Source: Methanobacteriota archaeon
GTDB taxonomy: Archaea > Halobacteriota > Bog-38 > Methanoflorentales > Methanoflorentaceae
Length of the DNA: 40,738 nucleotides
Direction of reading: 5' to 3'
Assembly: GCA_003158275.1 (NCBI GenBank)
Contig: PMIN01000064.1
Location: 1 to 40,738 of the forward strand
The position numbers and the translations under genes are program-made. The notes under the pieces were generated by a model. The model was not told the DNA's origin. It was given only the letters and a program-made list of their open reading frames with translations, and ran no database searches. This document shows, in pieces, positions 6,436 to 37,778 of the stretch (the stretch's first letter is position 1; each line of letters opens with the position of its first letter).

Positions 6436-7602
6436 ATGGAAATAGGGGGTTTTTTTGAATTTCCCAAATTTGACCATATTGATAACGGCGCTTCAACCTA
6501 CCATTATCTAACTAGCTTATACGAAAATTATAGTTTTTTTAGAGATGGAAGGCAGGCAATCAAAGCTGTCCTGCAAAATTCAGGTGAAATCAAAGATAGA
6601 CTGTGTTATCTACCATCATACCTGTGTGATTCAATTATCCAACCTTTCACAGAAATGAACTTAAACGTAAATCTTTTCGGTCACGAAGATCCTTTAAAGC
6701 CAATTTTGGATATGGACATCAGTAATTCAGTGATATTGATAATTGATTATTTTGGGACGGAATCTGTTTCCAACAAAGAAATTCGTGAGCTGTTAGACAA
6801 AGATAATATCGTAATTATGGATGTTACTCAATCAATACTTGATAACAACCGATTTTCGGTCACGCATGATTGTTATTATCTAGTTGCCAGTCTAAGAAAA
6901 ATTTTTCCTATCCCAGACGGAGGAATAGTCTACCATACTAACGAAAAATTCGCTGCAAGTGATATCTTCCCCATAGATTATGAATCAAAGTTGGAAGCTA
7001 TGGTTTTGAGATATTTCTATCTTAATGGAATAGCCGTAGATAATGTCCCTACCCATGACGACCAAAAGCTCGATTCCGTTTTTGAAGCCTGGTATACCAA
7101 AAAGCCTGAAGGATTTAAGAAACGTTTAGAAGCTGTAAAAAGGCATTATTTAGCCCTTCATTATGAATACGAGCTGAAGAAATTTCAAAATCAGATAATA
7201 CCCCAAAATATCCCTGCAATTTCGTTATACATATTGCATAATGTTTCCTATCCAAATATTATTAACAAAAGGGCTGAAAATCTAAAATTTGTGTACAAGA
7301 ACATCATTCATAAGGATCTATTTGTGTTCAATTTTGAAGATATCAAAAGTCCATTTTTGCTACCACTAAAATTCAAATCTGAAGAAGAAAGGGATTTCGT
7401 CAAAAACTCTCTAATAAAGGATGATATTTATCCGCCAATCGTATGGGACATAGAAGAATATGTCCCTAGCGAATACATTTACGAACGTGAATTTAGTAAA
7501 AGGATGCTAACAATACCAATAGACCAGAGATATACACCTTACGAACTATCAAAGCCCGTTACTATAATAAATCAGACATATCAGAAAATACAACAAAGCT
7601 GA
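6436..7602 (+). CDS. Divergent PLP aminotransferase-fold protein, AT-rich
   Basis: A 388-residue protein related to the fold-type I PLP enzymes of the DegT/DnrJ/EryC1 group, but divergent. Recognisable blocks are GRQAIKAVLQN (about 38-48), LPSYLCDSI, IIDYFG, VIMDVTQSIL (the Asp that contacts the PLP ring) and SLRKIFPIPDGG around residue 155-166, where Lys is the likely Schiff-base lysine. It probably modifies a nucleotide sugar or related small molecule for surface glycan. Composition is foreign: two 60-bp lines counted by eye are 37% and 27% GC, while a line in the neighbouring aminotransferase gene is 48%. It lies on the plus strand between minus-strand genes, between a dead and a live copy of the same aminotransferase, suggesting recent transfer. 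The ATG at 6436 follows only a weak GGTG site. Confidence 0.75.
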   Translation: MEIGGFFEFPKFDHIDNGASTYHYLTSLYENYSFFRDGRQAIKAVLQNSGEIKDRLCYLPSYLCDSIIQPFTEMNLNVNLFGHEDPLKPILDMDISNSVILIIDYFGTESVSNKEIRELLDKDNIVIMDVTQSILDNNRFSVTHDCYYLVASLRKIFPIPDGGIVYHTNEKFAASDIFPIDYESKLEAMVLRYFYLNGIAVDNVPTHDDQKLDSVFEAWYTKKPEGFKKRLEAVKRHYLALHYEYELKKFQNQIIPQNIPAISLYILHNVSYPNIINKRAENLKFVYKNIIHKDLFVFNFEDIKSPFLLPLKFKSEEERDFVKNSLIKDDIYPPIVWDIEEYVPSEYIYEREFSKRMLTIPIDQRYTPYELSKPVTIINQTYQKIQQS

Positions 7603-7992: not shown

Positions 7993-9087
7993 CTAACTAG
8001 TGGCATCTTTAAGTGCCCCCGCTACGTACGCAACTTCTTCATCGGTCAAAGAGGGATAAAGCGGTAGCGAGAGGATTTCGTTGCATATCACTTCAGTGAC
8101 TGACAAGTCTTTCGCGGTCTCAAACTCTTTGTAGGCATTTTGCTTATGGACTGGTATCCGATAGTGAATCTGTGTTTGAATGCCTCTCTTTTGCAGGAAC
8201 CGTTGACACTTGTCCCTCTTAGCTAATCGCGTTACGAACAAGTGATATACGTGCTTTGCATAGGCTCTTTCGACCGGCAGAATAATGTCTGTTTGATCAA
8301 GTACCTCCGCGTATAGTTTGGCTATCCGCCTCCTCTTTTCGTTCCACATATCCAAGCGCGATAGTTTGATTCGCAGTACCGCCGCTTGCAGCTCATCCAA
8401 ACGACTGTTGACCCCTACACAGTCGTGATGATATTTCTTAGATTGGCCATAATTCCTCAGCGATTTTATTCTTTCTGCCAAGCTGCTGTCGTTTGTCGTG
8501 ACGAAACCTCCGTCGCCATAGGCGCCGATGTTTTTCGCCGGATAAAAACTGAAACACCCCACATCCCCAATGCTGCCTACCTTTTTCCCATTATATTCTG
8601 CCCCGTGCGCTTGACATGCATCCTCGACTACAGAAAGACCGTGTTCTTTTGCGATCTCAAGGATGTAGCCCATGTTCGCTGGGTGCCCGTAAAGATGGAC
8701 GGGCAAAATGGCCTTGGTTTTTTCCGTTATTTTGTCCTCGATCAGCGCAGGATTGATGCAATAAGTTTCAGGCTCTATATCGACGAAGACAGGTTTCGCT
8801 CCACACCTCACAATACTATCTGCGGTTGAGACAAACGTATGAGAAACAGTTATGACTTCGCTATTTTCGTCGATTCCTAATGCTTTCAAGGCAAGAAATA
8901 GAGCATCGGAACCTGAATTCACACCGATGCCATGCTTTGCTCCGATGTAATGGGAAAACTCTCTTTCAAACTCATTCAGTTGTTGTCCAAGGATAAACCA
9001 CCCATTTTCCAGAGTTCTTTGGATGATGCTGGTGATCTCATCCCCGATTTCAGCATATTCTCTCTTTAAGTCGACGAGGGGTATCAT
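7993..9087 (-). CDS. DegT/DnrJ/EryC1 nucleotide-sugar aminotransferase (FdtB/QdtB-like)
   Basis: A 364-residue PLP-dependent sugar aminotransferase. Visible features are NSGSDAL (phosphate cup, 57-63), [15 protein letters not shown] with Asp156 under the PLP ring, and [16 protein letters not shown] with Lys185 as the Schiff-base lysine. The family transfers an amino group from glutamate to a keto-sugar nucleotide. The overall sequence resembles the FdtB/QdtB group that makes dTDP-3-amino-3,6-dideoxyhexose, and an FdtA/QdtA-type ketoisomerase is encoded at 20157, so this is the favoured substrate by inference. I chose ATG 9087 ([11 protein letters not shown], the usual family start) over the in-frame GTG at 9120. 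The last five codons of an ancestral GT2 start (MPLVS) still overlap its 3' end. Confidence 0.85.
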
Positions 9088-9112
9088 AATTTTCGCAGAC
9101 ACTTCACGTCTT

Positions 9113-9238
9113 TTACTCACGACGTGCTAGTTTTCGCGGGTAGTTCAGTAATAAGAGTTGTTTCATTAACCCATCCAAATATGCAGCATCAGATGCTTCA
9201 ACGTTTATCGTGTTCCCGATCGACTTCGCTCTTTTAGA
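9113..9238 (-). pseudogene. Possible glycosyltransferase C-terminal remnant
   Basis: A 41-codon open frame ends at TAA 9113-9115, just upstream of the aminotransferase. It reads VEASDAAYLDGLMKQLLLLN, the pattern seen near the C-terminus of GT4 enzymes (acidic loop, then a helix ending in LL.N.). No upstream part in frame is visible. The rest of the 9121-9462 gap, including a T-run near 9283-9289, shows nothing else. Confidence 0.3.
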
Positions 9239-17343: not shown

Positions 17344-18252
17344 ATGTCACGTACTAATATGCGTTCCCCGCCCTTTTTGTTTGTTTATATCGGCGTTATC
17401 GCTGCAATCGTAACAGCGTCTGCGGTCTATTCGTTTACGCAAAACTCAAATGAGCAGCCCCTACGCCCTGGTGATTATCATGTGACGTTAACGTACCAGG
17501 GATTAGCACGATCATACGTTCTCCACGTTCCACCTCAGTATGATGGAAATACCTCCCTCCCCCTCGTTATTGCGCTCCACTATTTGGGTGTCGACGCTGA
17601 AACCTTTGCAAATGTCAGCCACTTAAACGAAAAAGCTGACGCTGAGGGTTTTTTTGTTGTATATCCTCAGGGACTGAATAACTCCTGGAATGCAGGGTCC
17701 TGCTGTGGGTCGTCTTCTCAGCAAAAAGTCGATGATGCCGGATTCATTAAGGCCATCCTCGTACAGCTCAAGAGTCAACTCCCCGTGAATGATTCGCGTG
17801 TTTACGCCATTGGTGTTTCGAACGGCGGAATGCTTGCGTATAGTCTTGCCTGCGATTTTCCTGAGGACTTCGCTGCCATAGCGTCTATTGCTGGAACATC
17901 TGTCGTTGAGGGTTGTAACGCGACCAGACCGGTGTCGGTTCTTGAGGTCCATGGCACCGCTGATGAGGTCGTACCGTACAACAATACTACCCGTAATGAG
18001 AGCGTCTTTCCTGTCCCCCCTGCTGTCGACGCCATCTCCTACTGGGCACAGCACGACAGGACCGTTTCCGTCCAACGACAACAAGTAACAAACAACGTCA
18101 CAGAAACCACCTATAGTGGGGGCTCAAACGGAACCGAAGTGGTCCTTTATACGGTCATTGGCGCCACACACTCACAAACATTCGCGAACCCTATTCCGAC
18201 CCTCGATCTTGTATGGCGCTTCCTTGAGCTGCATCCGCGGCAGTCTGCTTAA
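17344..18252 (+). CDS. Secreted PHB-depolymerase/feruloyl-esterase-like hydrolase
   Basis: A 302-residue alpha/beta hydrolase of the LpqC/PhaC-depolymerase (CE1-like) type. A hydrophobic signal or anchor segment (10-31) precedes the catalytic domain. Visible are the nucleophile elbow GVSNGG with Ser159, Asp207 in HGTADEVVPY, and His276 in GATHSQ; the GSCCG pair and later cysteines probably form disulfides. The usual oxyanion motif HGxxG reads HYLG. Such enzymes cleave ester bonds in polymers or ester-linked acyl groups outside the cell. It follows the beta-lactamase-fold gene by 139 bp, with its own TATA-like box. ATG 17359 is a possible alternative start (see promoter). Confidence 0.85.
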   Translation: MSRTNMRSPPFLFVYIGVIAAIVTASAVYSFTQNSNEQPLRPGDYHVTLTYQGLARSYVLHVPPQYDGNTSLPLVIALHYLGVDAETFANVSHLNEKADAEGFFVVYPQGLNNSWNAGSCCGSSSQQKVDDAGFIKAILVQLKSQLPVNDSRVYAIGVSNGGMLAYSLACDFPEDFAAIASIAGTSVVEGCNATRPVSVLEVHGTADEVVPYNNTTRNESVFPVPPAVDAISYWAQHDRTVSVQRQQVTNNVTETTYSGGSNGTEVVLYTVIGATHSQTFANPIPTLDLVWRFLELHPRQSA

Positions 18253-19086: not shown

Positions 19087-19641
19087 TCAATCGCGGATCT
19101 TCTTTGCGGGAACGCCAGCGATAGTAATACCTGGTTCAGTGAACGATTCAATGACGACAGCGTTAGCCCCTACAATTATGTCATCTGCAAGTTCTATATC
19201 CCCTAGTATTCGAGCCCCTGCAAGAATCGTCACGTTGTCACCTATTTTAGGTGCCTTATCCGAATACCACGTCTTTTGTGCGATATGCGTGCAATTGTGA
19301 AGGGTGCAATTTGCCCCAACCTTTGCATTTCCATTTACTATAATTGTACCCCAATGGACCACATGTAATCCCGGCCCAAAAACGTTTAATGGAATGGTAA
19401 AGCCGAGTTTTATGCTTGATTGTTGCAGCCTGCGTCGAAGATAAAGGTTGTAGGGTCTCCAAGACAGTGAAGTTTTACAGTTATGATAATATTCGGCTTT
19501 TCTCAACAAACGCTGCCAAGCTAATACGACTTTATAGAAACGGCTAAAAGCCGTCCATTCTTGTATATTTAATCTGCGCATGTCTGCTTCTAAGAAAAGA
19601 GTATAGTCTTCTTTTGAATTGATTGGAGACCAAGATCCCAT
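19087..19641 (-). CDS. Left-handed beta-helix (hexapeptide) acyltransferase
   Basis: A 184-residue enzyme. A helical N-terminal part (1-60) is followed by imperfect hexapeptide repeats such as VNGNAKVGANCTLH, APKIGDNVTILAGARILGDI and DDIIVGANAVV, and the closing IAGVPAKKI of the family. It resembles serine O-acetyltransferase (CysE) homologues found in capsule loci and should move an acetyl or similar acyl group from CoA to a hydroxyl or amino group on a sugar. With the ketoisomerase at 20157 and the aminotransferase at 7993 it could N-acylate a 3-amino sugar (FdtC/QdtC role), but the LbH subfamily looks closer to O-acetyltransferases. I chose ATG 19641 (MGSWSPINSKEDY). The frame stays open to 19756 through repeat copy B, with GTG at 19683 as an alternative. 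Confidence 0.85.
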   Translation of the reverse strand: MGSWSPINSKEDYTLFLEADMRRLNIQEWTAFSRFYKVVLAWQRLLRKAEYYHNCKTSLSWRPYNLYLRRRLQQSSIKLGFTIPLNVFGPGLHVVHWGTIIVNGNAKVGANCTLHNCTHIAQKTWYSDKAPKIGDNVTILAGARILGDIELADDIIVGANAVVIESFTEPGITIAGVPAKKIRD

Positions 19642-19705
19642 AGCCACACCCTTCGCAAGTCGCAATCTGTCAGTATCCAACACGTATCCTCTTAAATCCG
19701 TAATA

Positions 19706-20156: not shown

Positions 20157-20669
20157 ATGCCCGAAGAAATAGGTCGGATAATTCAACTTCCGAAAGTTGA
20201 AGATGTGAGAGGCAATCTGACGTTCATTGAAGAGAATCGCCACGTACCGTTCGAGATCAAACGAGTCTACTACCTCTACGACGTTCCAGGTGGAGAGTCG
20301 CGAGGCGGACACGCGCACAAGCAACTGCATCAGTTCATCATCGCAGCGACTGGCAGCTTTGACGTTATCTTGGATGGGGGATCGAGTCAGGAACGCTATA
20401 ACTTGAATCGGTCCTATTACGGTTTATACATCCCGCCGATGGTATGGCGTGAAATCGATAATTTTTCTTCAGGCTCCGTTTGCTTGGTCTTGGTGTCAGA
20501 TTATTTCGATGAAGAGGATTACATTCGAGAGCATGACGTTTTTAGGAAGCAATTGCAAGCGCAACAAAAGGACCGCAATCAATACTCTGGTGGCTCAATC
20601 ACGCTGGAGAAGGTAGTGACCATATCACAACGGCGTGAAACTTCATTCCGCGACTCAGCTGACGATTGA
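20157..20669 (+). CDS. dTDP-sugar 3,4-ketoisomerase, cupin (FdtA/QdtA-like)
   Basis: A 170-residue single-domain cupin of the WxcM/FdtA/QdtA family. Key features are VRGNLTFIEE at the N-terminus, RGGHAHKQLHQ at 49-59 with the two active-site histidines 52 and 54, the LYIPPMVWREI strand (90-100), and VLVSDYFDEEDYIREHDVF near the C-terminus, a typical family ending. These enzymes convert dTDP-4-keto-6-deoxyglucose to the 3-keto isomer, the step before transamination to Fuc3N or Qui3N. The likely partner aminotransferase lies at 7993. FdtA and QdtA give products differing at C4, and I cannot tell which from sequence. A TATATATAAA at 20067-20076 is a possible TATA box with a leader of about 60 nt. 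The C-terminal 25 residues are polar and may be non-conserved. Confidence 0.88.
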   Translation: MPEEIGRIIQLPKVEDVRGNLTFIEENRHVPFEIKRVYYLYDVPGGESRGGHAHKQLHQFIIAATGSFDVILDGGSSQERYNLNRSYYGLYIPPMVWREIDNFSSGSVCLVLVSDYFDEEDYIREHDVFRKQLQAQQKDRNQYSGGSITLEKVVTISQRRETSFRDSADD

Positions 20670-20761: not shown

Positions 20762-21790
20762 CTAGTTTCTGAACCTCCTCAGTTTTTGAGCCAAGCCCTC
20801 TTTTATGTTAAACGCTGAATAGATCGTGTTGGCCACCCTGTCGAATCTATCCACATAGCAAAACGGTTCTAGCACCGGATCAAACTTTGATTTATATCGA
20901 GAGAGAGGCGCGTCAACTTCGCCTAAATCCAACTTCTTAAAGCCCGCTGATTTTGCCCGTTGAATGACTTCCCATACGAGATAATCGGTTACACTCAGAT
21001 CCTTTCGTGCGTTAACGTTGCCAATCCAATAGCAATACCGCTCCTTTTGCATCGCACAGCACGCGGTGGCGGTTGCGAGGCTTCCGTCGACGCTGAGGTT
21101 GTACACGGTTATTTCCTGGGGAAACGTCTTCACAAGCTCCTTGAGATAGCTGTCGCTTAGCAGGGGCACTTCTATGCCGAGTTCAGAGAACCTCGGTCGC
21201 CAGATGTCAAGCAATGGGCGCACGTCATCAGTTTGTTGTATCTCAGGTGAGTGTCCGTGCACGTACTTGATTTCCTGCCTGCAGCGCCTAGAGAATGATG
21301 CCCATATCTCATCGAGGGGTCTTTCCAAGTCAATCGCGTACGTAAACCTCAAGTACCCCCTATACCTCTTCTTCCAGGTGAAGGAGCGTACGTCGAGGAA
21401 ATTTGGGACAGTGACAAAACCAACGAAATTCGGCGCGATCTTATCGATCTCCCTGCACAGCTCGTCTGTTACTTGCTCGAAGATCTTTTCCTTAGTAATT
21501 GCCTTGAGCGCCTGCACGCTCGGATCAAAAGCTGGACCTAAATACCACAATTGTGTGTCGATGGGCGGCGGTGACCCCATATTAGTCAGTCCGAAGCGAT
21601 CTCGCCAAATAAAAAACGGAAATACGCATCTCAGCTCTTCTCCTGAGTATACACAATAGGGCACGAATCGGTACTTCGAATTTCGCTCAACGGCCTTAAG
21701 GAAGTTCCACTTGTGAAATAATAATCCCTCTGGGCTAGTTTCGACAAACTGGTCCCATCTCTTTTTATCGTCAAGTAACTCAACAGCCAT
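20762..21790 (-). CDS. FemAB/GNAT-like acyltransferase, pair 1 member A
   Basis: A 342-residue protein with the FemAB-like double-GNAT layout. The N-terminus (WDQFVETSPEGLLFHKWNFL) is the usual start of such enzymes, in which a Ser/Gly-rich segment precedes an aromatic helix. The centre holds ASFSRRCRQEIKYV, the SxxRRxIxxA-type motif of this fold, and the C-terminal GNAT half ends with KKLDLGEVDAPLSRYKSKF. Known relatives transfer amino acids from tRNA or acyl groups from CoA onto peptides or amino sugars. Here a glycan amino group is the likely acceptor, by inference from the 3-amino-sugar genes nearby. It has a close tandem paralogue at 21932-22987. The start is ATG 21790. Confidence 0.75.
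   Translation of the reverse strand: MAVELLDDKKRWDQFVETSPEGLLFHKWNFLKAVERNSKYRFVPYCVYSGEELRCVFPFFIWRDRFGLTNMGSPPPIDTQLWYLGPAFDPSVQALKAITKEKIFEQVTDELCREIDKIAPNFVGFVTVPNFLDVRSFTWKKRYRGYLRFTYAIDLERPLDEIWASFSRRCRQEIKYVHGHSPEIQQTDDVRPLLDIWRPRFSELGIEVPLLSDSYLKELVKTFPQEITVYNLSVDGSLATATACCAMQKERYCYWIGNVNARKDLSVTDYLVWEVIQRAKSAGFKKLDLGEVDAPLSRYKSKFDPVLEPFCYVDRFDRVANTIYSAFNIKEGLAQKLRRFRN
21032..21254. repeat. 223-bp perfect repeat within pair 1, copy in member A
   Basis: By eye, identical over 223 bp to 22238-22460. It encodes residues from about TDDVRPLL to MQKERYC of both FemAB-like proteins, whereas flanking parts differ. This is a block of recent duplication or gene conversion. Confidence 0.85.
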
Positions 21791-21931
21791 TTTTACACAC
21801 TACATAAGACATGCGCTTTTTGTTGACCTGTTTCGATCTGGAATCTGGCTAAAGCTGTTTCGCTTGTTCACATTGCTTCACTTTATTGGTTTCTTAGGGC
21901 CCGCTAGTCCCGGCGCCGACCGTTTCCATGC

Positions 21932-22987
21932 TCACAGCTTGCCTTTGGGAACTGCCGGTTCGTGTGTAGCACGCCGATGCAAGATTCGCTTGACTCTCAG
22001 CATTGAGCCGGCTAACCTTGGATAGGCAACGCTGGCTATCTTTGCCAACGCATCAATTCTTGAGACGTAGCAAAACGGTTCTAGCACCGGATTAAACTTT
22101 GATTTATATCGAGAAGGACCAGGTTCGCATAAATCCAACTTCTTAAAGCCCGCTGATTTTGCCCGTTGAATGACTTCCCAATCAAGAAATTCATTCACAT
22201 CAAGATCCCTGCGCACACTAACGCCACCGATCCAAATGCAATACCGCTCCTTTTGCATCGCACAGCACGCGGTGGCGGTTGCGAGGCTTCCGTCGACGCT
22301 GAGGTTGTACACGGTTATTTCCTGGGGAAACGTCTTCACAAGCTCCTTGAGATAGCTGTCGCTTAGCAGGGGCACTTCTATGCCGAGTTCAGAGAACCTC
22401 GGTCGCCAGATGTCAAGCAATGGGCGCACGTCATCAGTTTGTTGTATCTCAGGTGAGTGTGCGTGCGTCCGCTTTATTTTCTGCCTGCAGCGCCTAGAGA
22501 ATGATGCCCATATCTCATCGAGGGGTCTTTCCAAGTCAATAGCGTACGTGAACCCTATATGCGCCGTGAAGTCTTTCCAAATAAAGGAGCGTACGTCGAG
22601 GAAATTTGGGACAGTGACAAAACCAACGAAATTCGGCGCGATCTTATCGATCTCCCTGCACAGCTCGTCTGTTACTTGCTCGAAGATCTTTTCTTTGGCA
22701 CTTGCTTTGAGCGCTTGTATGCTCGGATCAAAGGCGGGACCTAAATACCATATTTGTGTGCCTCGTGGCGGAGAAAGCATGTGAGTCATTACCCGCCTTC
22801 GCCCGACAAAAAACGGGAATATGCACCTCAGCTCTTCTCCTGAGTATATGCCATAGGGCACGAACCGGTACCTCGAATGGCGTTCCACAGTCTTAAGGAA
22901 GTCCCACTTATGAAACAGGAATCCTTGTGGGCTAGCGTCGACAAACCGGTCCCACATCTTTTTATTGTCAAGCAGCTCAACAACCAT
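21932..22987 (-). CDS. FemAB/GNAT-like acyltransferase, pair 1 member B
   Basis: A 351-residue paralogue of the 20762-21790 gene, arranged in tandem 141 bp upstream of it in the reading direction. I chose ATG 22987 because MVVELLDNKK aligns with the paralogue's MAVELLDDKK; an earlier GTG-type frame extends to 23023. The middle is identical at the DNA level (22238-22460), other identical blocks encode the FVTVPNFLDVRSF and IDLERPLDEIWASF regions, and discrete windows differ. For example the GGVSVRRDLDVNEFLDW segment here replaces GNVNARKDLSVTDYLVW. The C-terminus is longer and unrelated, ending in a basic tail. It probably has the same chemistry with a different acceptor or donor. Confidence 0.75.
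   Translation of the reverse strand: MVVELLDNKKMWDRFVDASPQGFLFHKWDFLKTVERHSRYRFVPYGIYSGEELRCIFPFFVGRRRVMTHMLSPPRGTQIWYLGPAFDPSIQALKASAKEKIFEQVTDELCREIDKIAPNFVGFVTVPNFLDVRSFIWKDFTAHIGFTYAIDLERPLDEIWASFSRRCRQKIKRTHAHSPEIQQTDDVRPLLDIWRPRFSELGIEVPLLSDSYLKELVKTFPQEITVYNLSVDGSLATATACCAMQKERYCIWIGGVSVRRDLDVNEFLDWEVIQRAKSAGFKKLDLCEPGPSRYKSKFNPVLEPFCYVSRIDALAKIASVAYPRLAGSMLRVKRILHRRATHEPAVPKGKL
22238..22460. repeat. 223-bp perfect repeat within pair 1, copy in member B
   Basis: Partner of 21032-21254. The sequence diverges abruptly at both edges, with further identical blocks beyond short divergent windows. Confidence 0.85.
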
Positions 22988-23875
22988 TTTTGCATCCTTG
23001 TAACGCGATATGGTGAAATCCACGAGAATGAGTGGCGAGCACAGGCAAGCCAGTCTTTTCTACACTGTGGTCGCTGCACATTCAGAAAAACTACTCTAAA
23101 TGTTTTGTAATACTGTCCTATTGAGGCAGTTCTCCATGACTTTAACGACAGGGCCCCCCACATAATTGCCACTTTTCCTAACATAATCATAGTTAAAGAT
23201 CATTGCTATTCTTTGAGCCCATCATTCCAGCGCAGTTTGTTTGAATAAAAAGGCGTCACTTCGTTTGTTATTATGTTTCGGGTATCGCCAATTGATATCA
23301 CTAGCAGCATACCGCGCGTGATTACCTTTAAAACGATGGTTAGTAGTCCTCTTGGTATGTCGGCAATATGAGTAATCGAAGTGTGTATAGCAGATCAGCA
23401 CCCTGTTCTGTCACCCTCCTCGAACCTTCTCTGTGCTGTTTTTAACGTTTATTTAAGAAGCGGCCTTCTTAACCTCTTCGAATAGTATAACTTCGAATAG
23501 TATAATAATATCTTTAAATGAGCGAGTTGTTTCAAGCTTTATGAGTAGGAAGACAATTAGTCGATTATGGCTCATATTCATAAAGCGTGCTCAAAAATGA
23601 AAGAGGTCTCTTGGGTTAGAGAAGGCGTTTGTTAACACTCTGACTCGGGGAAGGATAACCTACATACTCCTACAAGAGATATTTTCAGCGAAATAACAAA
23701 AACGAATCGACGGCCTATTACAATAGATGTGAAAAGTGGGTCTCACAGGGAAACGTTTACTGGTTGCGAGGATTATACATATATAAACGCAGAATCACGC
23801 TCTGGACGTCCAACAAGATTGATTTTGCGTCCTGTTTCGAATATGCTCACTAAAAGGCAAAGAAGCGTCGATAGC
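22988..23875. other. Divergent promoter region with a 15-bp tandem repeat
   Basis: About 890 bp between the two divergently oriented acyltransferase pairs; no gene recognised. Two perfect 15-bp units, CTTCGAATAGTATAA, lie in tandem at 23476-23490 and 23491-23505, followed by AT-rich TATA-like sequence (TATCTTTAAATG) at 23510-23520. This is a good candidate for control of the plus-strand pair. The plus-strand frame of the next gene stays open back to 23729 but has no homologous residues there. Confidence 0.45.
23476..23505 (+). repeat. 15-bp perfect tandem duplication
   Basis: The unit CTTCGAATAGTATAA is present twice with no spacer. AT-rich, non-coding, about 370 nt upstream of the ATG at 23876; possibly regulatory or a replication-slippage product. 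Confidence 0.75.
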
Positions 23876-24832
23876 ATGATTGAAGTCGTTCGGTATGAAT
23901 CAAGCTATAAATCTCGATGGGATGATTTCGTTCGTAACTCCAATAACGGGAGCTTTCTTTTCTTTCGAGATTACATGGATTACCACTTAGACAGGTTCCT
24001 AGATTCATCGCTTCTTTTTTTTGAAGAAGACGATTTAGTCGCTCTCATGCCCGCAAATATCGCGGATGACATTTTTTGCAGTCATGCTGGTTTGACATTT
24101 GGAGGGGTGATATCTGATCGAAAGAAGATGAGAATCGAGTTGATGTTGGACGTATTTGACTCTTTAATGGAGTATCTAAGCCAACATCGGATTAAGACCA
24201 TAGTGTACAAACCAATTCCGCATATTTACCATACGGTCCCAGCAGAGGAGGATCTTTATGCACTTTTTCGATATGGTGCAAGGCTAATCAGACGCGATGT
24301 CTCTTCTGCCATTGTTTTCGATGAACCTATCCCATTTAGTAAATCAAGAAGGCGGGGGATAACGCTCGCCAAGAAGAGCGGGATCACAATTACGCGAACT
24401 GATGATTTTGAAGCGTTTATGTCCATAGTAGGGGGGGTGCTCAAGAGTAAGTATAACGTAAAGCCCACTCATACGTCGAGTGAGATAGTATCCCTCGCGC
24501 AGAAATTCCCTGAAAATATTAAGCTTTTTGCCGCGTACAGGGATGAGATAATGCTTGCAGGCGTGATTATCTACGAAAGTGGACCCGTCGCTCACGCGCA
24601 ATATATCGCATCGAGCGATACAGCGAAAAAAATGGGGGTCGCAGATTTAGTGTTTGACTCCATAATCTCTCATTATTCAACCGAAAAGAAGTATTTTGAT
24701 TTTGGGATATCAACGGAAAAAGGTGGAGCTTACCTAAATAGTGGCCTTGCTGCGAACAAGCAATATTTTGGCGCCCGAGCCATTATGTACGACACTTATG
24801 AAGTAGATGTGGCAAATAGTAGATCCCTATAA
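23876..24832 (+). CDS. FemAB/GNAT-like acyltransferase, pair 2 member A
   Basis: A 318-residue protein of the same broad acyltransferase group as pair 1 but only distantly related to it. The N-terminus RYESSYKSRWDDFV and NGSFLFFRDYMDYH are family-typical. RRGITLAKKSGITITRTDDF matches the basic-helix-plus-strand core motif, and YFDFGISTEKGGAYLNSGL forms the last GNAT strand and loop. The start ATG 23876 was chosen because the tandem paralogue at 24931 begins at the equivalent residue (MIDIVRYES). It probably attaches an acyl or aminoacyl group to a sugar amine in the surface glycan; the substrate is unknown. It is followed 98 bp later by its duplicate. Confidence 0.75.
   Translation: MIEVVRYESSYKSRWDDFVRNSNNGSFLFFRDYMDYHLDRFLDSSLLFFEEDDLVALMPANIADDIFCSHAGLTFGGVISDRKKMRIELMLDVFDSLMEYLSQHRIKTIVYKPIPHIYHTVPAEEDLYALFRYGARLIRRDVSSAIVFDEPIPFSKSRRRGITLAKKSGITITRTDDFEAFMSIVGGVLKSKYNVKPTHTSSEIVSLAQKFPENIKLFAAYRDEIMLAGVIIYESGPVAHAQYIASSDTAKKMGVADLVFDSIISHYSTEKKYFDFGISTEKGGAYLNSGLAANKQYFGARAIMYDTYEVDVANSRSL
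24128..24338. repeat. 211-bp perfect repeat within pair 2, copy in member A
   Basis: By eye, identical over 211 bp to 25180-25390. It covers the codons from MRIELMLDVF to FDEPIPF. The 5' parts of the two genes differ clearly on the left of this block. Confidence 0.85.
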
Positions 24833-24930
24833 GATATGCTTCAAGACTAGGGTGTTATGAAATTACGCATTAACACACGATTGTGCTCCGGTCGTGAATT
24901 ACGTAACAACACGGTAGTAGGAGCCCGAGC

Positions 24931-25896
24931 ATGATTGATATAGTCAGGTATGAATCAAGCTATAAATCTCGATGGAATGATTTCATAAGCAAGTCTAAAA
25001 ACGGGAGCTTTCTTTTCTTTCGAGACTACATGGAATATCACAAAGACAGGTTCTTTGATTCATCGCTTCTTTTTTTTGAGGACGACGTCCTGATCGCTGT
25101 TATGCCAGCAAATGTATCGGGCAGTGTTTTACAAAGCCACGAAGGTCTCACTTTTGGAGGCGTCACATCAAACAAACAAATGAGAATCGAGTTGATGTTG
25201 GACGTATTTGACTCTTTAATGGAGTATCTAAGCCAACATCGGATTAAGACCATAGTGTACAAACCAATTCCGCATATTTACCATACGGTCCCAGCAGAGG
25301 AGGATCTTTATGCACTTTTTCGATATGGTGCAAGGCTAATCAGACGCGATGTCTCTTCTGCCATTGTTTTCGATGAACCTATCCCATTTAACAGAAGAAG
25401 AAGGCGAGGGATAACGCTCGCCAAGAAGAGCGGGATCACAATTACGCGAACTGATGATTTTGAAGCGTTTATGTCCATAGAGGTGGGGGTGCTCGAGAGT
25501 AAGTATAACGTAAAGCCCACTCATACATCGAGTGAGATAACATCCCTCGCGCAGAAATTCCCTGAAAATATTAAGCTTTTTGCCGCTTATAGGGATGAGA
25601 TAATGCTTGCAGGCGTGATTATCTACGAAAGGAAACCCGTCGTTCATGGACAGTACGCCGCATCGAGCGAAATAGGACGTAAAATGAGGGCCGCAGACTT
25701 GCTCTGGAACTTCTTAATAACTCATTATTCAACCGAAAAGAAGTATTTTGATTTTGGGATATCAACGGAAAAAGGTGGAGCTTACCTAAATAGTGGCCTT
25801 GCTGCGTACAAGGAAAGTTTTGGCGCCCGAGCCGTCATGTATGATACTTACGAAGTAGACGTTGCAAATAATAGATCGCCTTCAGATCCACCCTAG
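24931..25896 (+). CDS. FemAB/GNAT-like acyltransferase, pair 2 member B
   Basis: A 321-residue tandem paralogue of the preceding gene, 98 bp downstream. The ATG 24931 start (MIDIVRYESSYKSRW) aligns with it. The region 25180-25390 is identical in DNA and the rest is near-identical with short changed windows: positions around NRRRRR versus SKSRRR, and the segment AADLLWNFLITHYS versus VADLVFDSIISHYS. The N-terminal strand and loop after FFED differ most (SGSVLQSHEGLTFGG versus DDIFCSHAGLTFGG types). Known chemistry of the fold is acyl or aminoacyl transfer; the role here is inferred to be glycan decoration. GAGCCCGAGC precedes the ATG without a good ribosome-binding site. Confidence 0.75.
   Translation: MIDIVRYESSYKSRWNDFISKSKNGSFLFFRDYMEYHKDRFFDSSLLFFEDDVLIAVMPANVSGSVLQSHEGLTFGGVTSNKQMRIELMLDVFDSLMEYLSQHRIKTIVYKPIPHIYHTVPAEEDLYALFRYGARLIRRDVSSAIVFDEPIPFNRRRRRGITLAKKSGITITRTDDFEAFMSIEVGVLESKYNVKPTHTSSEITSLAQKFPENIKLFAAYRDEIMLAGVIIYERKPVVHGQYAASSEIGRKMRAADLLWNFLITHYSTEKKYFDFGISTEKGGAYLNSGLAAYKESFGARAVMYDTYEVDVANNRSPSDPP
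25180..25390. repeat. 211-bp perfect repeat within pair 2, copy in member B
   Basis: Partner of 24128-24338; see that entry. Confidence 0.85.
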
Positions 25897-26072: not shown

Positions 26073-28727
26073 ATGAAGCTCGAGACCCGCATCAACCTGA
26101 AAGACGTAGGCATAAAACAATTACTAGCCACGGTGCTTTCGCTTCAAATCGCATTGTGGACGCTAATGGGACTAAACGTTTTAGGAGTCTCGATCCCGAT
26201 TGTTCAGCCGCTTATAGGCTTTGTGTATCTCACTTTCGTCCCTGGGACCCTTATATTAGCAGCCCTCAGACTGCGCAACCTGGGTATCGTTGAAGCTGTA
26301 TTATATGCGGCGGGGCTGAGCATCACAGTCGTGATGACGATCGGGCTTGTAGATACCATTGTCTTCAATGCAGTCAACGTGATTAAACCGTTCTCTAGTC
26401 TTAGTGTCATTAGCTCGGTAAGCTTGGTGGTACTGGTATTGTGTGCTGTTGCCTACTTCAGAAACAGAACAATGGGCCATGTCCGTTACCCCCCCGGTTT
26501 GGGTAAAGGTCTAAACTCGATATCTCTTTTCAACACCGAAATATCGGTCCCGTTGACTCCAACGTTATTTTTAGTCATACTACCTTTTATCACAGTTTTT
26601 AGCACCTACCTTGTCAATACTTACAACGTACCTGTGGGGCAGTTTGCTCTTTACTTAATACTTGGTGCCGTTGTCCTTTTAATCGCGTTTACTAGGTTCA
26701 TTCCGCCGAAACTATATCCCTTAGCAGTTTTTGTGATAGCCTTATCGCTCCTATTTCAAGAGACACTTATCTCAGCGTTTGTAACTGGATGGGACATTCT
26801 GAGTGAGTGGAGCTTAGCTAACTCCGTATTGACTGCAGGTGCCTGGAATCCCAGTCTGCTCAATCACTATGATGGTATGTTAAGCATAGTTGCAGTTGCG
26901 CCTGTTTACTCCATCATCTCGGGCCTCGACCTCATATGGGTTTTTAAGATAGTGTATCCCGCAATATTTGCCCTGGTCCCGCTTGGCTTATACCAAATAT
27001 TTCGCAGACAGGTGGATGAGAAAATAGCGTTCCTGTCGAGTTTCTTTTTCATGTCGATCGTGAGCTTTTTCGTCGAAATGACTCAATTGGGAAGACAGGA
27101 AATAGCCGAGTTTTTCTTTGTTTTATTAATTTTGCTGCTCGTAAGCAAAGAGATGAACAAAACGATCCAATCAGCGCTTTTTGTAGTATTCAGTCTATCA
27201 CTGGTGGTATCCCATTACGGCTTGACGTACATAGCCCTATTTTTCTTTTTTGTGATGTGGCTCGTATTAGCCGTAGCACCCGTCGATGGATCAAAACCGA
27301 CTATGTCGTTATTACGAATTAAGAGGGGGGCCCGCAAGGACAATCAGATCTTCGTTCCATCCCCTGAATCATCCCCGAGAAGCGCTGTAACGATTCTCTC
27401 CATCTTGGTACTTTTCATTGCGTCATTTGCGTGGTACGCTTTCACTGCGCAAACGGAAATCCTTTCAATTGTCTCCTCACTCGGGAGCCAAATTGCAGGT
27501 TCAATACAAAACATGTTCAACCCTACATATAGCCAAGCCGTAAACATCGCGGCCCAACAGGCGCATGCACCGCAAGGCTCCATCCTTCATCGGGTAGTAT
27601 CCGCAGCCGACGCGTCTTTTTACTACCTCAACCAGTTCTTTATCCTAGTGGGCGTGTGCGTGGTAATTTTTCTGAAAAAGCACCGCTTCAGGTTTCAACG
27701 CCCCTATGTGGTCATCTCGACTACCGCGTTAGGATTCCTGATCGTTGCTATAGCTGTTCCTTATCTCAGCGCCTCTTTAAACTGGTCTCGGGTGTTCCAA
27801 ATTGCGTCGATCTTATTGGCGCCATTCCTCGCCGTAGGTTTCATCAAAATCGGTGAGGGCGGTAGCGCGACAATGAGTAGAGTTAAAAGTAAGCTCGGGT
27901 TTGGCAACTCAGCGCGGGTGAATCTCTCACGTTTGACAAGGTTGCTCGCCTTATACTTAGTGGTCTATTTGTTTTTTTCGACCGGCTTTGTTTTAGCCCT
28001 TGCAGAGGGCAGTCAGACGATCGCGCTAAACAATAAGATTGATGATATGCAGTTCAATCACCAGGAGATCAGCGGCGTCACATGGCTGGCCACTAACGGT
28101 GGCGCCATCCCCCTCTCCGGTAAATACGTCACCATATACCACTACTTCAACAGCGTCAGGTACAACGACACCAACGAAACCACCAACGCCACCGGCCAGA
28201 TTACCCTCACCCAGACCTTGAGCTCCGCCGGTCAAAACGCCTACTATGCCACCTTCGCCGGCGACGCAGCCTACAACCCCGTAACGGCCGGCGGCGTCAA
28301 CGTCAGTGTCGGCAGCAGCCAAGCCACCAGCCAAGCCACCAGCCAAGCCACCACATACGGAGTACTCACCACATCCGAAGGGAGCGTTGTTCAAACCATC
28401 ACCCTCGCCGCGTCCACCACGACCCCTGCAGTCGGCCAGCCCGTCACCTTCACCGCCACTCTCACAGGTGCACAGGTCGCATACGGAGATGAATACAGAT
28501 CAATGTTAATTGGAGCTCTCGACCCACCAGCAAAAGGGTTGATACTACAAAACACATCAGCTGGTGGTAGTTTCATCTTCCTGGGCACTTACAACATTGA
28601 ACACAATCAGGCTGACATACCCTTAAAAATAGGTGTGAATCCCGTGGTGTCTATACAAAATGTCACACCCTTTGTTAGTAACAAAAGTCTGATTTACTCT
28701 AATGGAGGTGCTAATGTATATTCGTGA
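26073..28727 (+). CDS. DUF2206-like archaeal membrane protein with inserted Ig-like module
   Basis: An 884-residue polytopic protein. The N-terminal segment (PLIGFVYLTFVPGTLILAAL, then EAVLYAAGLSI) and the overall pattern of about 14-16 helices up to residue 655 resemble the archaeal DUF2206 family, predicted GT-C-like membrane proteins common in archaeal glycan loci. Conserved blocks include a luminal GWDILSEW loop with acidic residues after helix 8 or so (Asp in GWD may be catalytic in a GT-C fold). After the last helix the expected extracellular end is split: EISGVTWLATN (about 665-675) is separated from VAYGDEYRSML (about 802-812) by an Ig-like insertion (residues 676-799). A lipid-phosphate-sugar transferase or polymerase role is an inference. 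ATG 26073, no clear ribosome-binding site. Confidence 0.75.
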   Translation: MKLETRINLKDVGIKQLLATVLSLQIALWTLMGLNVLGVSIPIVQPLIGFVYLTFVPGTLILAALRLRNLGIVEAVLYAAGLSITVVMTIGLVDTIVFNAVNVIKPFSSLSVISSVSLVVLVLCAVAYFRNRTMGHVRYPPGLGKGLNSISLFNTEISVPLTPTLFLVILPFITVFSTYLVNTYNVPVGQFALYLILGAVVLLIAFTRFIPPKLYPLAVFVIALSLLFQETLISAFVTGWDILSEWSLANSVLTAGAWNPSLLNHYDGMLSIVAVAPVYSIISGLDLIWVFKIVYPAIFALVPLGLYQIFRRQVDEKIAFLSSFFFMSIVSFFVEMTQLGRQEIAEFFFVLLILLLVSKEMNKTIQSALFVVFSLSLVVSHYGLTYIALFFFFVMWLVLAVAPVDGSKPTMSLLRIKRGARKDNQIFVPSPESSPRSAVTILSILVLFIASFAWYAFTAQTEILSIVSSLGSQIAGSIQNMFNPTYSQAVNIAAQQAHAPQGSILHRVVSAADASFYYLNQFFILVGVCVVIFLKKHRFRFQRPYVVISTTALGFLIVAIAVPYLSASLNWSRVFQIASILLAPFLAVGFIKIGEGGSATMSRVKSKLGFGNSARVNLSRLTRLLALYLVVYLFFSTGFVLALAEGSQTIALNNKIDDMQFNHQEISGVTWLATNGGAIPLSGKYVTIYHYFNSVRYNDTNETTNATGQITLTQTLSSAGQNAYYATFAGDAAYNPVTAGGVNVSVGSSQATSQATSQATTYGVLTTSEGSVVQTITLAASTTTPAVGQPVTFTATLTGAQVAYGDEYRSMLIGALDPPAKGLILQNTSAGGSFIFLGTYNIEHNQADIPLKIGVNPVVSIQNVTPFVSNKSLIYSNGGANVYS
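28098..28469 (+). other. In-frame circularly permuted Ig-like (Big-type) module
   Basis: About 124 codons, more GC-rich and cytosine-ended than the flanks. It begins in the middle of an Ig-like repeat (IPLSGKYVTIYHYFN, then NATGQITLTQT and YYATFAGDAAYNP), passes through a SQAT linker, and ends with what is normally the beginning of the next repeat (TTPAVGQPVTFTATLTG). One full repeat period is thus present but permuted. A 22-bp stretch, CTACTATGCCACCTTCGCCG region, is shared with the remnant near 37.7 kb. Confidence 0.75.
28317..28352 (+). repeat. Three perfect 12-bp repeats (SQAT linker)
   Basis: AGCCAAGCCACC occurs three times in tandem and encodes the Ser-Gln-Ala-Thr linker of the inserted Ig-like module. 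It could expand or contract without changing frame. Confidence 0.9.
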
Positions 28728-29193: not shown

Positions 29194-30375
29194 TTACTTA
29201 CTCACCGCGAGTTCTAAGATTCTGCGCCAGCGCTCTACTGCCCTAATGTACGTGAATTTTTGCTCGATTACGTTGTGGGCATTTGCAACAATTCTCTCTA
29301 TATCGGGGTGAGATATCGCCCTTGTTATGTTCTCAGCGATCACTGCGGGGGTGTGATCCTCCATGATGAAGCCCGTTTCTTCATCCCTGATCACATCTAC
29401 AATGCCTCCTTTTGCTGTAGCCAAAACCGGGGCTCCACACGCCATGGCTTCTAAAACAGATGTAGGAAAGGCATCGAAATACGTAGGAAGAACAAACAGC
29501 CTTAATCGATTGAAATAATCCGGGAGGCCTTTTTCTATCCAGCCTATGACTTCAATATCGACACCAAGTTCTTCAAAGAGGGCCCTACTCTTTTCGTCGA
29601 CATAATGCGACAATTTTCCCGATCCACCGATGAGGAACTTCACGTTGTTGTAAGACTTGGAAACTAGCGGGATTGCGTCGAGAAATTCGACGATTCCTTT
29701 TTCTTTTGCCAGCCGACCAATAAAACCAACGACTAGTTCGCGTTCGTCAATACTCTTGTCTATTTTAAAATATGAGGTATCAACAAACCGAGCTCCTTCG
29801 GGAAGGAGTTTGCTCTGGTACTTTGCTAGCTTTAGCTCTTCGATCAGCGTAGAAGTCTCGGGCGAGAGTCCATCAAACAGCTTGAGAAGAAGCGGGTCTT
29901 GTAGGCTAAATATTCTTGTGAGCAGAAGTTTTTTGCTGCTTATGCTTCTGGTGATGACGTCTATCGTTCTCTTTCCCAGAAGCTTCGAAGTAATTACAGG
30001 TATCAGATAAAACGGATTTGCCATATAAAAAACAACGATATCCACTTCACCGCGAATTCTCATAAGTTCTAGGCTGCTTTTCGCCTGCGCGAGAATACAT
30101 TTAACGATCCACAAAAGCCCAGAATAGAGTGTCGGTTTTTTTTCGGCTACATAATGTAATCCTACACCTATATCGCGAAGTTCGACTTTTTCAGACACTA
30201 CATTGATCCTGTCCGTATTTCCGTCTATCACCACAATTTCTTTGCAAAGAGGGTCAAGAATTTTGAGCAATTCTGACAAGAATTTGTAGGGTGCTTCAGA
30301 TTGCCAGGGGAAGGAAACAATGGCAACTCGGCATTTTTGGTCATTTTCCAAAGATGCTTCTGCCATCAAAGTCAT
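29194..30375 (-). CDS. Family 4 glycosyltransferase
   Basis: A 393-residue GT-B enzyme, last gene of a three-gene minus-strand operon. The N-terminal domain starts CRVAIVSFPWQSEAP. The second domain begins VVGFIGRLAKEKGIVEFLDA, a textbook GT4 motif with the phosphate-binding Arg and Lys, and ends with FPTSVLEAMACGAPVLATAKGG (the E-x7-E site) and DEETGFIMEDHTP. It should transfer a sugar from an NDP donor to the growing glycan. ATG 30375 (or the ATG at 30366) overlaps the 3' end of the phosphodiesterase gene by about 25-35 nt, indicating translational coupling. Confidence 0.92.
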   Translation of the reverse strand: MTLMAEASLENDQKCRVAIVSFPWQSEAPYKFLSELLKILDPLCKEIVVIDGNTDRINVVSEKVELRDIGVGLHYVAEKKPTLYSGLLWIVKCILAQAKSSLELMRIRGEVDIVVFYMANPFYLIPVITSKLLGKRTIDVITRSISSKKLLLTRIFSLQDPLLLKLFDGLSPETSTLIEELKLAKYQSKLLPEGARFVDTSYFKIDKSIDERELVVGFIGRLAKEKGIVEFLDAIPLVSKSYNNVKFLIGGSGKLSHYVDEKSRALFEELGVDIEVIGWIEKGLPDYFNRLRLFVLPTYFDAFPTSVLEAMACGAPVLATAKGGIVDVIRDEETGFIMEDHTPAVIAENITRAISHPDIERIVANAHNVIEQKFTYIRAVERWRRILELAVSK

Positions 30376-31837
30376 AGCGTCTCCAATCGATACCTAAGAG
30401 ATCGAGGATAGTTGGTGCAACGTCCATCAAAGTTGCTTCCTTTTTGCTGATGTTTCTTTCTTGAACGTTAGAGATCAAGAAGACTGCATGATGTTGCTTA
30501 TGGTACCCAGGCGAAATATTATGCATAATACTCTTACCAAACCGAGACGCGGGAGTCATCATACCAGCGCAATACGTATCCTCTAACTCAAAAAGGATGT
30601 CCGGATAACGCTCGACGTAAGCACCCTCGTACAACTCCTCACGCTTGATGGCCCACTTCGCAACCCGCTCGCCTGTTTCAGGATCTGTGATCTTCAGAAT
30701 CGCTTTAATGATCGAGTCGCGCACTTGTTCGTAATCGCCTTCGTTAACATTTTCCGTGTTGACACGTATACCCCCGTAAGGGTAGTTTTTGATTCCGGAT
30801 TGATCGGTCAGGTAGGCAATGCTGTTTTTCCAGTCAACAGGATTTGAGCTGACTATCCAGTCCTTGCCTTTCGGAAACACACGGAGAGCCTTTTCAGCGA
30901 AGTTCCCAAGTTCATATTTGTCGACGGCTTTCATTATAGAGAGTTTGAGTTGCGCTGAAGGAGACACGGTACGGGTCACATTCTTTTTGCCATTTTGAAT
31001 GGTTATCATGCCCATTTCGCGGAGAAATTCATTAAGGTTCACCAAGTTGACCGGCCGCGAACCTATTCCGTGATCGCTCACTACAATGGTCGACGTGTCG
31101 GTATCTGTTGCAGCCAAGAATCTCGCAATGATTTCATCGTAGAGCTGATAAAATTCTGGAATTACATTCTTATAGCGATTATTGGTTCGGTAGGCCGGAT
31201 CATTCTCATCGTAAGAATTCCAGTATGAGTACTGAATTATATCAAGTTCACCAAAGGATACAAAGAACAGATCCCATTCGAGTTCGTTAAGGAGCCGCAT
31301 CGCGAGTTTCGTCTCACGCTCGAGTTGTTGCTTGGCTAGGTAAATGTAGGAATCCTTATCCCGTTTTCCTGGGAAGTGAGCTATATCCCATCGGAATTCA
31401 GAAATATTGTAATCGTCGCTTACGCTAGGTGGACATACGCGCACTTTTTTTGTTATCCCCGATCTGCCTACCATGACCCCATTGACCGGCCAGGGTGGAT
31501 ATCCGACCAGGTGGGGGAGGACGCAAACTCGTTTTCCTATCCCACTTGCGAGGTCCCAAAACGTCTTCCCACGAATCGTTGTGTTATCAACATCCTTATT
31601 AACCATCTCGCTCGTTCTGCTCAAAATATCGACAAAGAGCAGGATTCCGTGTCTTGCTGGATTTAACCCAGTATATATCGAGCCCCACGAAGTCGGCGAA
31701 TCTGGCGGGAAAACGCCATCAAACTGGATATCTCGCGATTCTTCTCTCAGTTTGGAAAAAGTTGGTAAATCATTTTCAAGCTGCGACAAGGTAAGTGAAT
31801 CCAATGCATCTATTCCAATCACAAGTACTTTTGACAT
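30341..31837 (-). CDS. AlkP-superfamily phosphodiesterase/phosphatase
   Basis: A 498-residue protein of the type I phosphodiesterase/nucleotide pyrophosphatase branch of the alkaline phosphatase superfamily. Metal ligands and nucleophile can be placed: Asp10 in VIGIDALD, Thr49 in SPTSWGS (nucleophile), Asp199, Asp255-His256 in SDHG, and His449 or His450 in HKQHH. Where most relatives have D-x3-H, this reads DIIQY, so one zinc-binding His may be Tyr203. No signal peptide is seen, so it is cytoplasmic or acts at the inner face. Archaeal glycan loci often carry such enzymes, probably acting on phosphorylated sugar or polyprenyl intermediates. AGGTAGG lies 7 nt upstream of ATG 31837, a good ribosome-binding site. 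It sits between the kinase gene (10 bp gap) and GT4 (overlap). Confidence 0.88.
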   Translation of the reverse strand: MSKVLVIGIDALDSLTLSQLENDLPTFSKLREESRDIQFDGVFPPDSPTSWGSIYTGLNPARHGILLFVDILSRTSEMVNKDVDNTTIRGKTFWDLASGIGKRVCVLPHLVGYPPWPVNGVMVGRSGITKKVRVCPPSVSDDYNISEFRWDIAHFPGKRDKDSYIYLAKQQLERETKLAMRLLNELEWDLFFVSFGELDIIQYSYWNSYDENDPAYRTNNRYKNVIPEFYQLYDEIIARFLAATDTDTSTIVVSDHGIGSRPVNLVNLNEFLREMGMITIQNGKKNVTRTVSPSAQLKLSIMKAVDKYELGNFAEKALRVFPKGKDWIVSSNPVDWKNSIAYLTDQSGIKNYPYGGIRVNTENVNEGDYEQVRDSIIKAILKITDPETGERVAKWAIKREELYEGAYVERYPDILFELEDTYCAGMMTPASRFGKSIMHNISPGYHKQHHAVFLISNVQERNISKKEATLMDVAPTILDLLGIDWRRYDFDGRSIFGK

Positions 31838-37541: not shown

Positions 37542-37778
37542 ATGACGAGGTTACGATTTTCCTTGCTCGGGTGCGCTTTGCCGTACGCCGTTTTCAGATG
37601 CGCCGCTCCGCCGATGTCGACGCGCATAGACACAACGATATACACCGACGCGAGCGCCAAGGTTACGTTCACACAGAAGTGGACGCCAGCCGGCACCCGC
37701 CCCTACTATGCCACCTTCGCCGGTGATAGGTGGTACAAGGCATCGACGAGCGTAGTCGCGACGATCATCGTTCATTAA
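37542..37778 (+). pseudogene. Ig-like domain remnant
   Basis: The last 48 codons in frame, from about 37632, read TTIYTDASAKVTFTQKWTPA, then PYYATFAGDRWYKASTS and VVATIIVH, ending TAA 37776-37778. This is the second half of a Big/Ig-like repeat of the kind inserted at 28098-28469, with shared DNA around CCTACTATGCCACCTTCGCC. The first half and any signal peptide are missing or out of frame. Probably a leftover of a secreted surface protein. Confidence 0.65.

Follow-up and report, generated by a model that had tools for sequence, protein, structure and literature searches.

The window analyzed here, a stretch of 40,738 nucleotides (nt) that makes up the entire contig C9 of the draft genome G000 (2.10 Mb in 252 contigs, 70% complete) from an uncultivated Halobacteriota lineage, is mostly occupied by a surface-glycan cluster, in which four intact genes encode FemX-like proteins with a double GNAT fold. 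They form two tandem pairs in divergent arrangement, in agreement with an earlier interpretation made without database searches (the sequence-only reading). Pair A lies on the minus strand, with A2 (21932-22987) preceding A1 (20762-21790, 342 residues) in the direction of transcription, and pair B lies on the plus strand, with B1 (23876-24832) followed by B2 (24931-25896, 321 residues). The description of the pairs requires some amendment. Because the homology between copies begins at the ATG codons at 22987 (A2) and 23876 (B1), these are probably the true starts, and the listed GTG codons at 23023 and 23729 fall outside and upstream of the homology, respectively. The pairs share only ~20% identity with each other, B1 and B2 are 82% identical, and pair B contains additional small islands of divergence.

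Within each pair, part of the coding sequence is identical at the nucleotide level. The block comprises 223 nt in pair A (21032-21254 in A1, codons 180-253, and 22238-22460 in A2, both on the minus strand) and 211 nt in pair B (24128-24338 in B1 and 25180-25390 in B2, both on the plus strand). All are maximal exact matches that cannot be extended on either side, and the sequence-only reading had delimited them precisely. It had also described their edges as abrupt, and indeed in windows of 30 nt the identity amounts to 0.60 (A) or 0.30 (B) immediately before the block, 1.0 within it, and 0.77-0.80 for one window past it, after which it goes back to ~1.0; each pair therefore possesses several identical blocks with islands between them. 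When the codon differences were shuffled within each pair, the longest identical run averaged 39 nt in pair A and 47 nt in pair B; the observed length was reached in 0 of 20,000 shuffles. A windowed comparison of synonymous differences reveals a divergence that is not uniform: there are none in the blocks, and ~40-80% of synonymous sites are changed in windows over the main islands. The synonymous divergence (dS) of the core versus the islands is 0.01 vs 1.34 in pair A and 0.05 vs 0.74 in pair B.

The islands of pair A (minus strand, coordinates given for A1) comprise residues 1-101, with the strongest divergence in a domain 1 loop at 62-80 (21551-21607), residues 138-148 (21347-21379; YRxxLR type in A1, FTxHI type in A2), residues 173-179 (21254-21274), residues 254-272 (20975-21031; the A2 counterpart at 22181-22237 is of the GGVS..RRD..LDWE type), residues 290-296 (20903-20923), and the C-terminal tail. 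The 173-179 island has only seven codons, with identical sequence on both sides (60 and 223 nt). In pair B (plus strand, B1 numbering) the islands comprise residues 1-89, strongest at 61-81 (24056-24118), i.e. in the domain 1 loop of the same region as A 62-80, residues 155-157 (24338-24346; SKS in B1, NRR in B2), 185-190, 235-266 (24578-24673, with the B2 counterpart at 25630-25725; beta4-loop-alpha3 of the second GNAT domain), and 294-297. Island positions of the two pairs correlate (r 0.43, reached in ~1% of circular shifts, of which few are independent).

All four proteins pass the cutoff of the Acetyltransf_6 family (PF13480, 22 bits) with 42.8 (A1), 41.0 (A2), 30.1 (B1) and 22.6 bits (B2), and the cutoff of the FemAB family (PF02388, 24 bits) is not reached (A2 11.2, B2 18.8 bits). 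The top NCBIfam model for all of them is TIGR03019, whose cutoff of 260 bits exceeds the 32-59 bits scored here. A1 alone found no match in a sequence search of solved structures, and a profile built from 23 relatives of A and B matches FemX (1ne9) at E 6e-13; for A1 and A2 the double GNAT fold is predicted from this profile. The AlphaFold2 model of B2 (pLDDT 82.8) has the double GNAT fold, with TM-scores of 0.66-0.69 to FemX and Sbb17, and its top matches among solved structures are Sba18/Sbb17 with bound streptothrisamine (an amino sugar), followed by FemX.

Tyr254 and Tyr256 of FemX, both of which we take to line the substrate site, align to the start of the large island of pair A and, via the joint A-B alignment, also to that of the large island of pair B; A1 254-272 corresponds to the FemX beta-strand with these tyrosines and the next helix. 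Tyr254 is mutated in a solved variant of FemX (1xf8). Phe304-Lys305 of FemX align to Tyr299-Lys300 of A1 (Lys300 at 20891-20893) and Tyr293-Lys294 of B2, and the equivalent of Lys305 is invariant in at least 90% of the 23 sequences. The 290-296 island of A1 lies directly ahead of this FKxxF catalytic-lysine motif, and of the four residues 293-296 at the lysine only one is the same in B1 and B2 (YKES in B2, 25807-25818, plus strand; NKQY in B1). In the second GNAT domain, the first helix, which is basic, carries a small island of each pair (A 173-179, and B 155-157 at its start). A helix in FemX has been proposed to contact tRNA (PMC12945691); that the basic helix of the small islands is its equivalent is our own suggestion, and it is perhaps correct.

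To place the pairs in an evolutionary context, we analyzed their relatives in other genomes. A second species of the genus (G003) possesses on contig C153 a third tandem pair, composed of relatives of the A genes, in which the first 183 nt of the coding sequence are identical between the copies and the remainder differs, i.e. the block sits elsewhere than in pair A; the 62-80 loop is diverged in this pair as well. The upstream sequences and the C-terminal tails of A1 and A2 are unrelated. The region 21291-23429 of the window is collinear with positions 1-2171 of C153, with 64.7% identity upstream of A2, and therefore the A tandem is older than the split of the two species.

Site patterns and trees were compared for four copies, namely A1 and A2 from the window and C153b and C28 from G003. 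The concerted, orthologous and swapped patterns account for 29, 0 and 0 core sites and for 7, 15 and 2 island sites, respectively (Fisher P 5e-8). The core tree groups A1 with A2 at 100% bootstrap, and the island tree groups A2 with C28 (99%), with the complementary split A1+C153b at 95%. Thus, in pair A the paralogues are closer than the orthologues within the tract, and the trees conflict elsewhere. C153b is the orthologue of A2 by position, yet its inner islands are A1-like. The core shared by A1 and A2 is closer to C28 than to C153b (53 vs 20 sites, P 1e-4), and since the islands of A1 are C153b-like, A2 was probably the donor of the core and A1 the recipient. All four possible pairings of the two island types at 138-150 and 254-272 are represented (one by A1 and C153b, the others by A2, C28 and C23), which indicates that these segments were exchanged separately. 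The sequence-only reading had attributed the mosaic to gene conversion of a core instead of gradual divergence, and the old flanks, the dS contrast, the conflicting trees and the third pair all bear this out.

We favor, with a probability of about 0.62, an explanation by ectopic gene conversion of the core in two old tandem pairs, which kept their old islands and differ in specificity. Four FemX-like N-acyl or N-aminoacyl transferases of a surface-glycan cluster would descend as two old tandem pairs, in which neighbour-to-neighbour conversion would have overwritten the structural core, in pair A most likely with A2 as the source. The short islands that surround the predicted acceptor/donor site would have kept ancient type-specific sequence and been exchanged separately between copies. 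The likely outcome would be a single scaffold with differing substrate preferences, which decorates amino sugars of the surface glycan, a variation that may be important to the cell.

The weakest link of this explanation is the selection that would hold the islands apart. The claim of the sequence-only reading that the islands are specificity loops gains indirect support, because the islands align with the substrate-site and lysine segments of FemX, their positions correlate between A and B, and the island types reassort; positive selection, in contrast, is unsupported, as dN/dS above 1 was not found in the islands (0.31 in A, 0.41 in B). Several further observations weigh against the favored explanation. 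In G003 the converted block occupies the N-terminal region that is diverged between A1 and A2, and chance may therefore explain some of the island pattern. The structure model of A1 (pLDDT 31, two usable sequences) was discarded, and because of this failure the islands of pair A were placed by sequence alignment only. No second species with the pair B tandem was found, so the age of pair B is judged from dS. In the closed genome G013 the 12 A-family copies share runs of at most 22 nt and are far more diverged; other genomes rich in A-family paralogues likewise contain highly diverged copies with no long shared runs. All three tandems were analyzed as assembled sequence only, in fragmented draft genomes of presumably metagenomic origin.

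The most serious competitor, which we regard as rather unlikely, invokes the same conversion but considers the islands as chance leftovers, where random tracts failed at sequence that was already too diverged, without selection for specificity. It agrees with the lack of dN/dS above 1, with the different position of the homogenised block in G003, and with the finding that island codons outpace core codons in amino-acid change in other copy pairs too, so that they may simply be tolerant sites. Random failure accounts poorly, however, for a seven-codon island (A 173-179) between long identical stretches, for the correlation of island positions between pairs with so little identity, for the divergence of the 62-80 loop in the A pairs of both species, and for the alignment of islands with the substrate-site and catalytic-lysine segments.

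The reverse scenario, in which the blocks are ancestral and the islands are new, i.e. a recent duplication was followed by the import of short diverged pieces from other lineages, is improbable. Island types do recur in other copies and genomes, so that a pool of donors exists, and for pair B no orthologous tandem that would counter it was found. However, the upstream sequences and C-terminal tails of A1 and A2 are unrelated and the A2 flank matches that of C153b by position; for pair A the conserved flanks with G003 lead us to reject a recent duplication. We give still less credence to an assembly artefact, in which near-identical stretches were collapsed or duplicated by the assembler and the blocks or the second copies are not real. 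Such an error would be conceivable in a draft of 252 contigs, the more so as a number of related contigs break off within A-family genes, a pattern expected of assemblies at repeats, and a further copy in G000 (contig C163) contains an N gap. Yet the copies all have intact frames and flanks of their own, a collapse that erased a difference of a few percent could still not yield the core-island contrast in dS, and an independent assembly retains the tandem with its flank and presents the third mosaic pair at a different position. Finally, constraint at the nucleotide level (RNA structure or an overlapping gene), for which open antisense frames over the blocks could be cited, is refuted as the cause of core identity, since the same cores differ from other copies of the genus at dS 0.5-1.0 (A core) and by 18 third-position differences between the two species, and it has a negligible likelihood.

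Traces of further A-family genes were found in related contigs. On C163 of G000 (L047, positions 17-881) the copy broken by the N run is immediately followed by a ligase remnant, and on contig C77 of G002 (L051, ~7357-7468) there is a decayed A-family gene start of ~38 codons that carries an in-frame TAG. The segment upstream of A2 (22988-23429) resembles, at 64.7% identity, the end of a G003 glycosyltransferase gene together with its flank (L048). It exhibits only short matches in differing frames, however, and is probably a decayed glycosyltransferase. Relatives of A or B were not detected on viral contigs.

The genomic neighborhood suggests a function for pair B. The sequence-only reading had linked the four genes to a 3-amino-sugar pathway, and this is well supported for pair B but not for pair A. 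In each of the eight further lineages examined, relatives of B adjoin FdtA (dTDP-6-deoxyhexose 3,4-ketoisomerase family), a DegT aminotransferase or both (FdtA in 7/8, DegT in 7/8): the archaeon G035, Vibrio harveyi, metagenome-assembled genomes of Prevotellaceae and Marinilabiliaceae, Saccharicrinis, Ruegeria, Prevotella, and Devosia. In V. harveyi the gene order is rmlB-rmlA-fdtA-B-degT. In distant bacteria the FemX-fold B family consistently accompanies FdtA/FdtB genes (L041, L042, L043, L044, L061, L080, L081 and L082; a GH32-like protein is found in L061, L080 and L082). It is labelled, where annotated, only as GNAT, and in the literature we found nothing specific on FemAB-type enzymes in Fdt operons. 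In the window, an FdtA gene (20157-20669, plus strand; PF05523, 184 bits) lies 3.2 kb from B1, and an FdtB-like DegT-type sugar aminotransferase (7993-9120, minus strand), 61% identical to the counterpart that adjoins the B gene in G035, is 14.8 kb away. Because FdtA and/or FdtB-type genes adjoin B in eight lineages, B is probably a 3-amino-sugar N-acyltransferase; its enzymes would probably acylate the 3-amino group introduced by FdtA and the FdtB-type aminotransferase, and N-acylation of a dTDP-3-amino-3,6-dideoxyhexose is the most economical reading.

Relatives of A are instead found near PaaK-like ligases or a LegC-type aminotransferase. A distinct clade of PaaK-like adenylating ligases, with phenylacetate-CoA ligase as the best PDB match, occurs next to A-family genes across Halobacteriota; by distances estimated by eye, 12 of the 13 best-scoring ligases are within ~6 kb of A-family genes, and none of the 34 weaker-scoring ones is evidently near them. 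Ligases of this type are found in L054, L057, L058, L063, L067, L068 and L046 (1237-2562). In G003 an A gene is located ahead of a WbuC-like cupin and a LegC-type aminotransferase. The linkage to this ligase clade suggests that the acyl donor of the A family is made by the neighboring ligase. The evidence on the donor is split: the FemX lysine is retained and the canonical acyl-CoA pyrophosphate loop of GNAT enzymes (Q/RxxGxG/A) had no match in six proteins, which would fit an aminoacyl-tRNA donor, whereas for A the linkage to ligases points in the opposite direction.

Among characterized systems, the aminoacyl-tRNA-dependent FemX/FemABX transferases (Weissella FemX, 1ne9/4ii9) share with A and B the double GNAT fold, the aligned FKxxF lysine and the Tyr254/Tyr256 segments, but the A and B proteins are archaeal, belong to a glycan cluster, are not expected to act on peptidoglycan, and remain below the Pfam FemAB cutoff. 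TIGR03019, the nearest NCBIfam model, describes XrtA/PEP-CTERM-associated FemAB proteins. FdtC and QdtC, the N-acetyltransferases of dTDP-3-amino-3,6-dideoxyhexoses, occupy the same pathway slot, as FdtA and FdtB-type genes adjoin the B genes on one or both sides, but FdtC and QdtC are hexapeptide-repeat enzymes, whereas B has the FemX fold. For streptothricin synthases of the Sba18/Sbb17 type we know of no tandem mosaic. These Sba18/Sbb17 and Orf11-type aminoacyl-tRNA-dependent enzymes (9wqw-9wqy; PMC12945691) are the best fold matches of B2 (TM 0.68/0.75) and acylate an amino sugar, but they act on an antibiotic intermediate and are only 12-14% identical. With regard to the mosaic itself, in GOT1 of Tigriopus (PMC3728101) converted stretches likewise alternate with divergent islands and form novel combinations, although that is a eukaryotic aspartate transaminase and not an archaeal surface-glycan enzyme family. 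Within-genome homogenisation of paralogues also characterizes the long-lasting concerted evolution reported for 26 prokaryotic genes, mostly key members of important pathways (PMC6053082); here, by contrast, it is partial and leaves active-site islands.

The remainder of the cluster contains glycosyltransferases, a flippase (11413), a DUF2206 membrane protein and a hexapeptide-repeat acyltransferase (19087-19683, minus strand; PF00132, with serine O-acetyltransferases as the top NCBIfam models, below cutoff). It also includes a beta-lactamase-fold serine hydrolase of 687 residues (PF00144, 15141-17204) with an esterase next to it at 17344, and a type I phosphodiesterase gene (30341-31837); on several haloarchaeal plasmids, the FemX-like match overlaps with a gene labelled "alkaline phosphatase family". 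An 84-nt repeat with 71% identity (28181-28264 and 37643-37726, 9.5 kb between) probably represents segments of Ig-like domains, and its first copy falls within the DUF2206/Big_3_5 protein (26073-28727).

More speculatively, and with a doubtful standing at present, this lineage may employ ectopic recombination between FemX-like genes, both tandem and dispersed, as a combinatorial specificity system, in which a uniform scaffold permits efficient exchange and active-site cassettes are shuffled, giving rise to new N-acyl or N-aminoacyl surface decorations, e.g. for the evasion of viruses. If ectopic conversion with retained islands is indeed the correct explanation, the locus would be a case in which the surface-glycan enzymes of an archaeon have a homogenised scaffold, while their active-site cassettes are protected and can be exchanged. 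B1 and B2 would then be natural tandem twins whose differences are centred on the active site, and would allow a direct test of the specificity code of FemX-like sugar acyltransferases. The findings also provide a likely pathway role, the N-acylation of 3-amino sugars, for a FemX-fold family that ranges from Vibrio and Prevotella to archaea.

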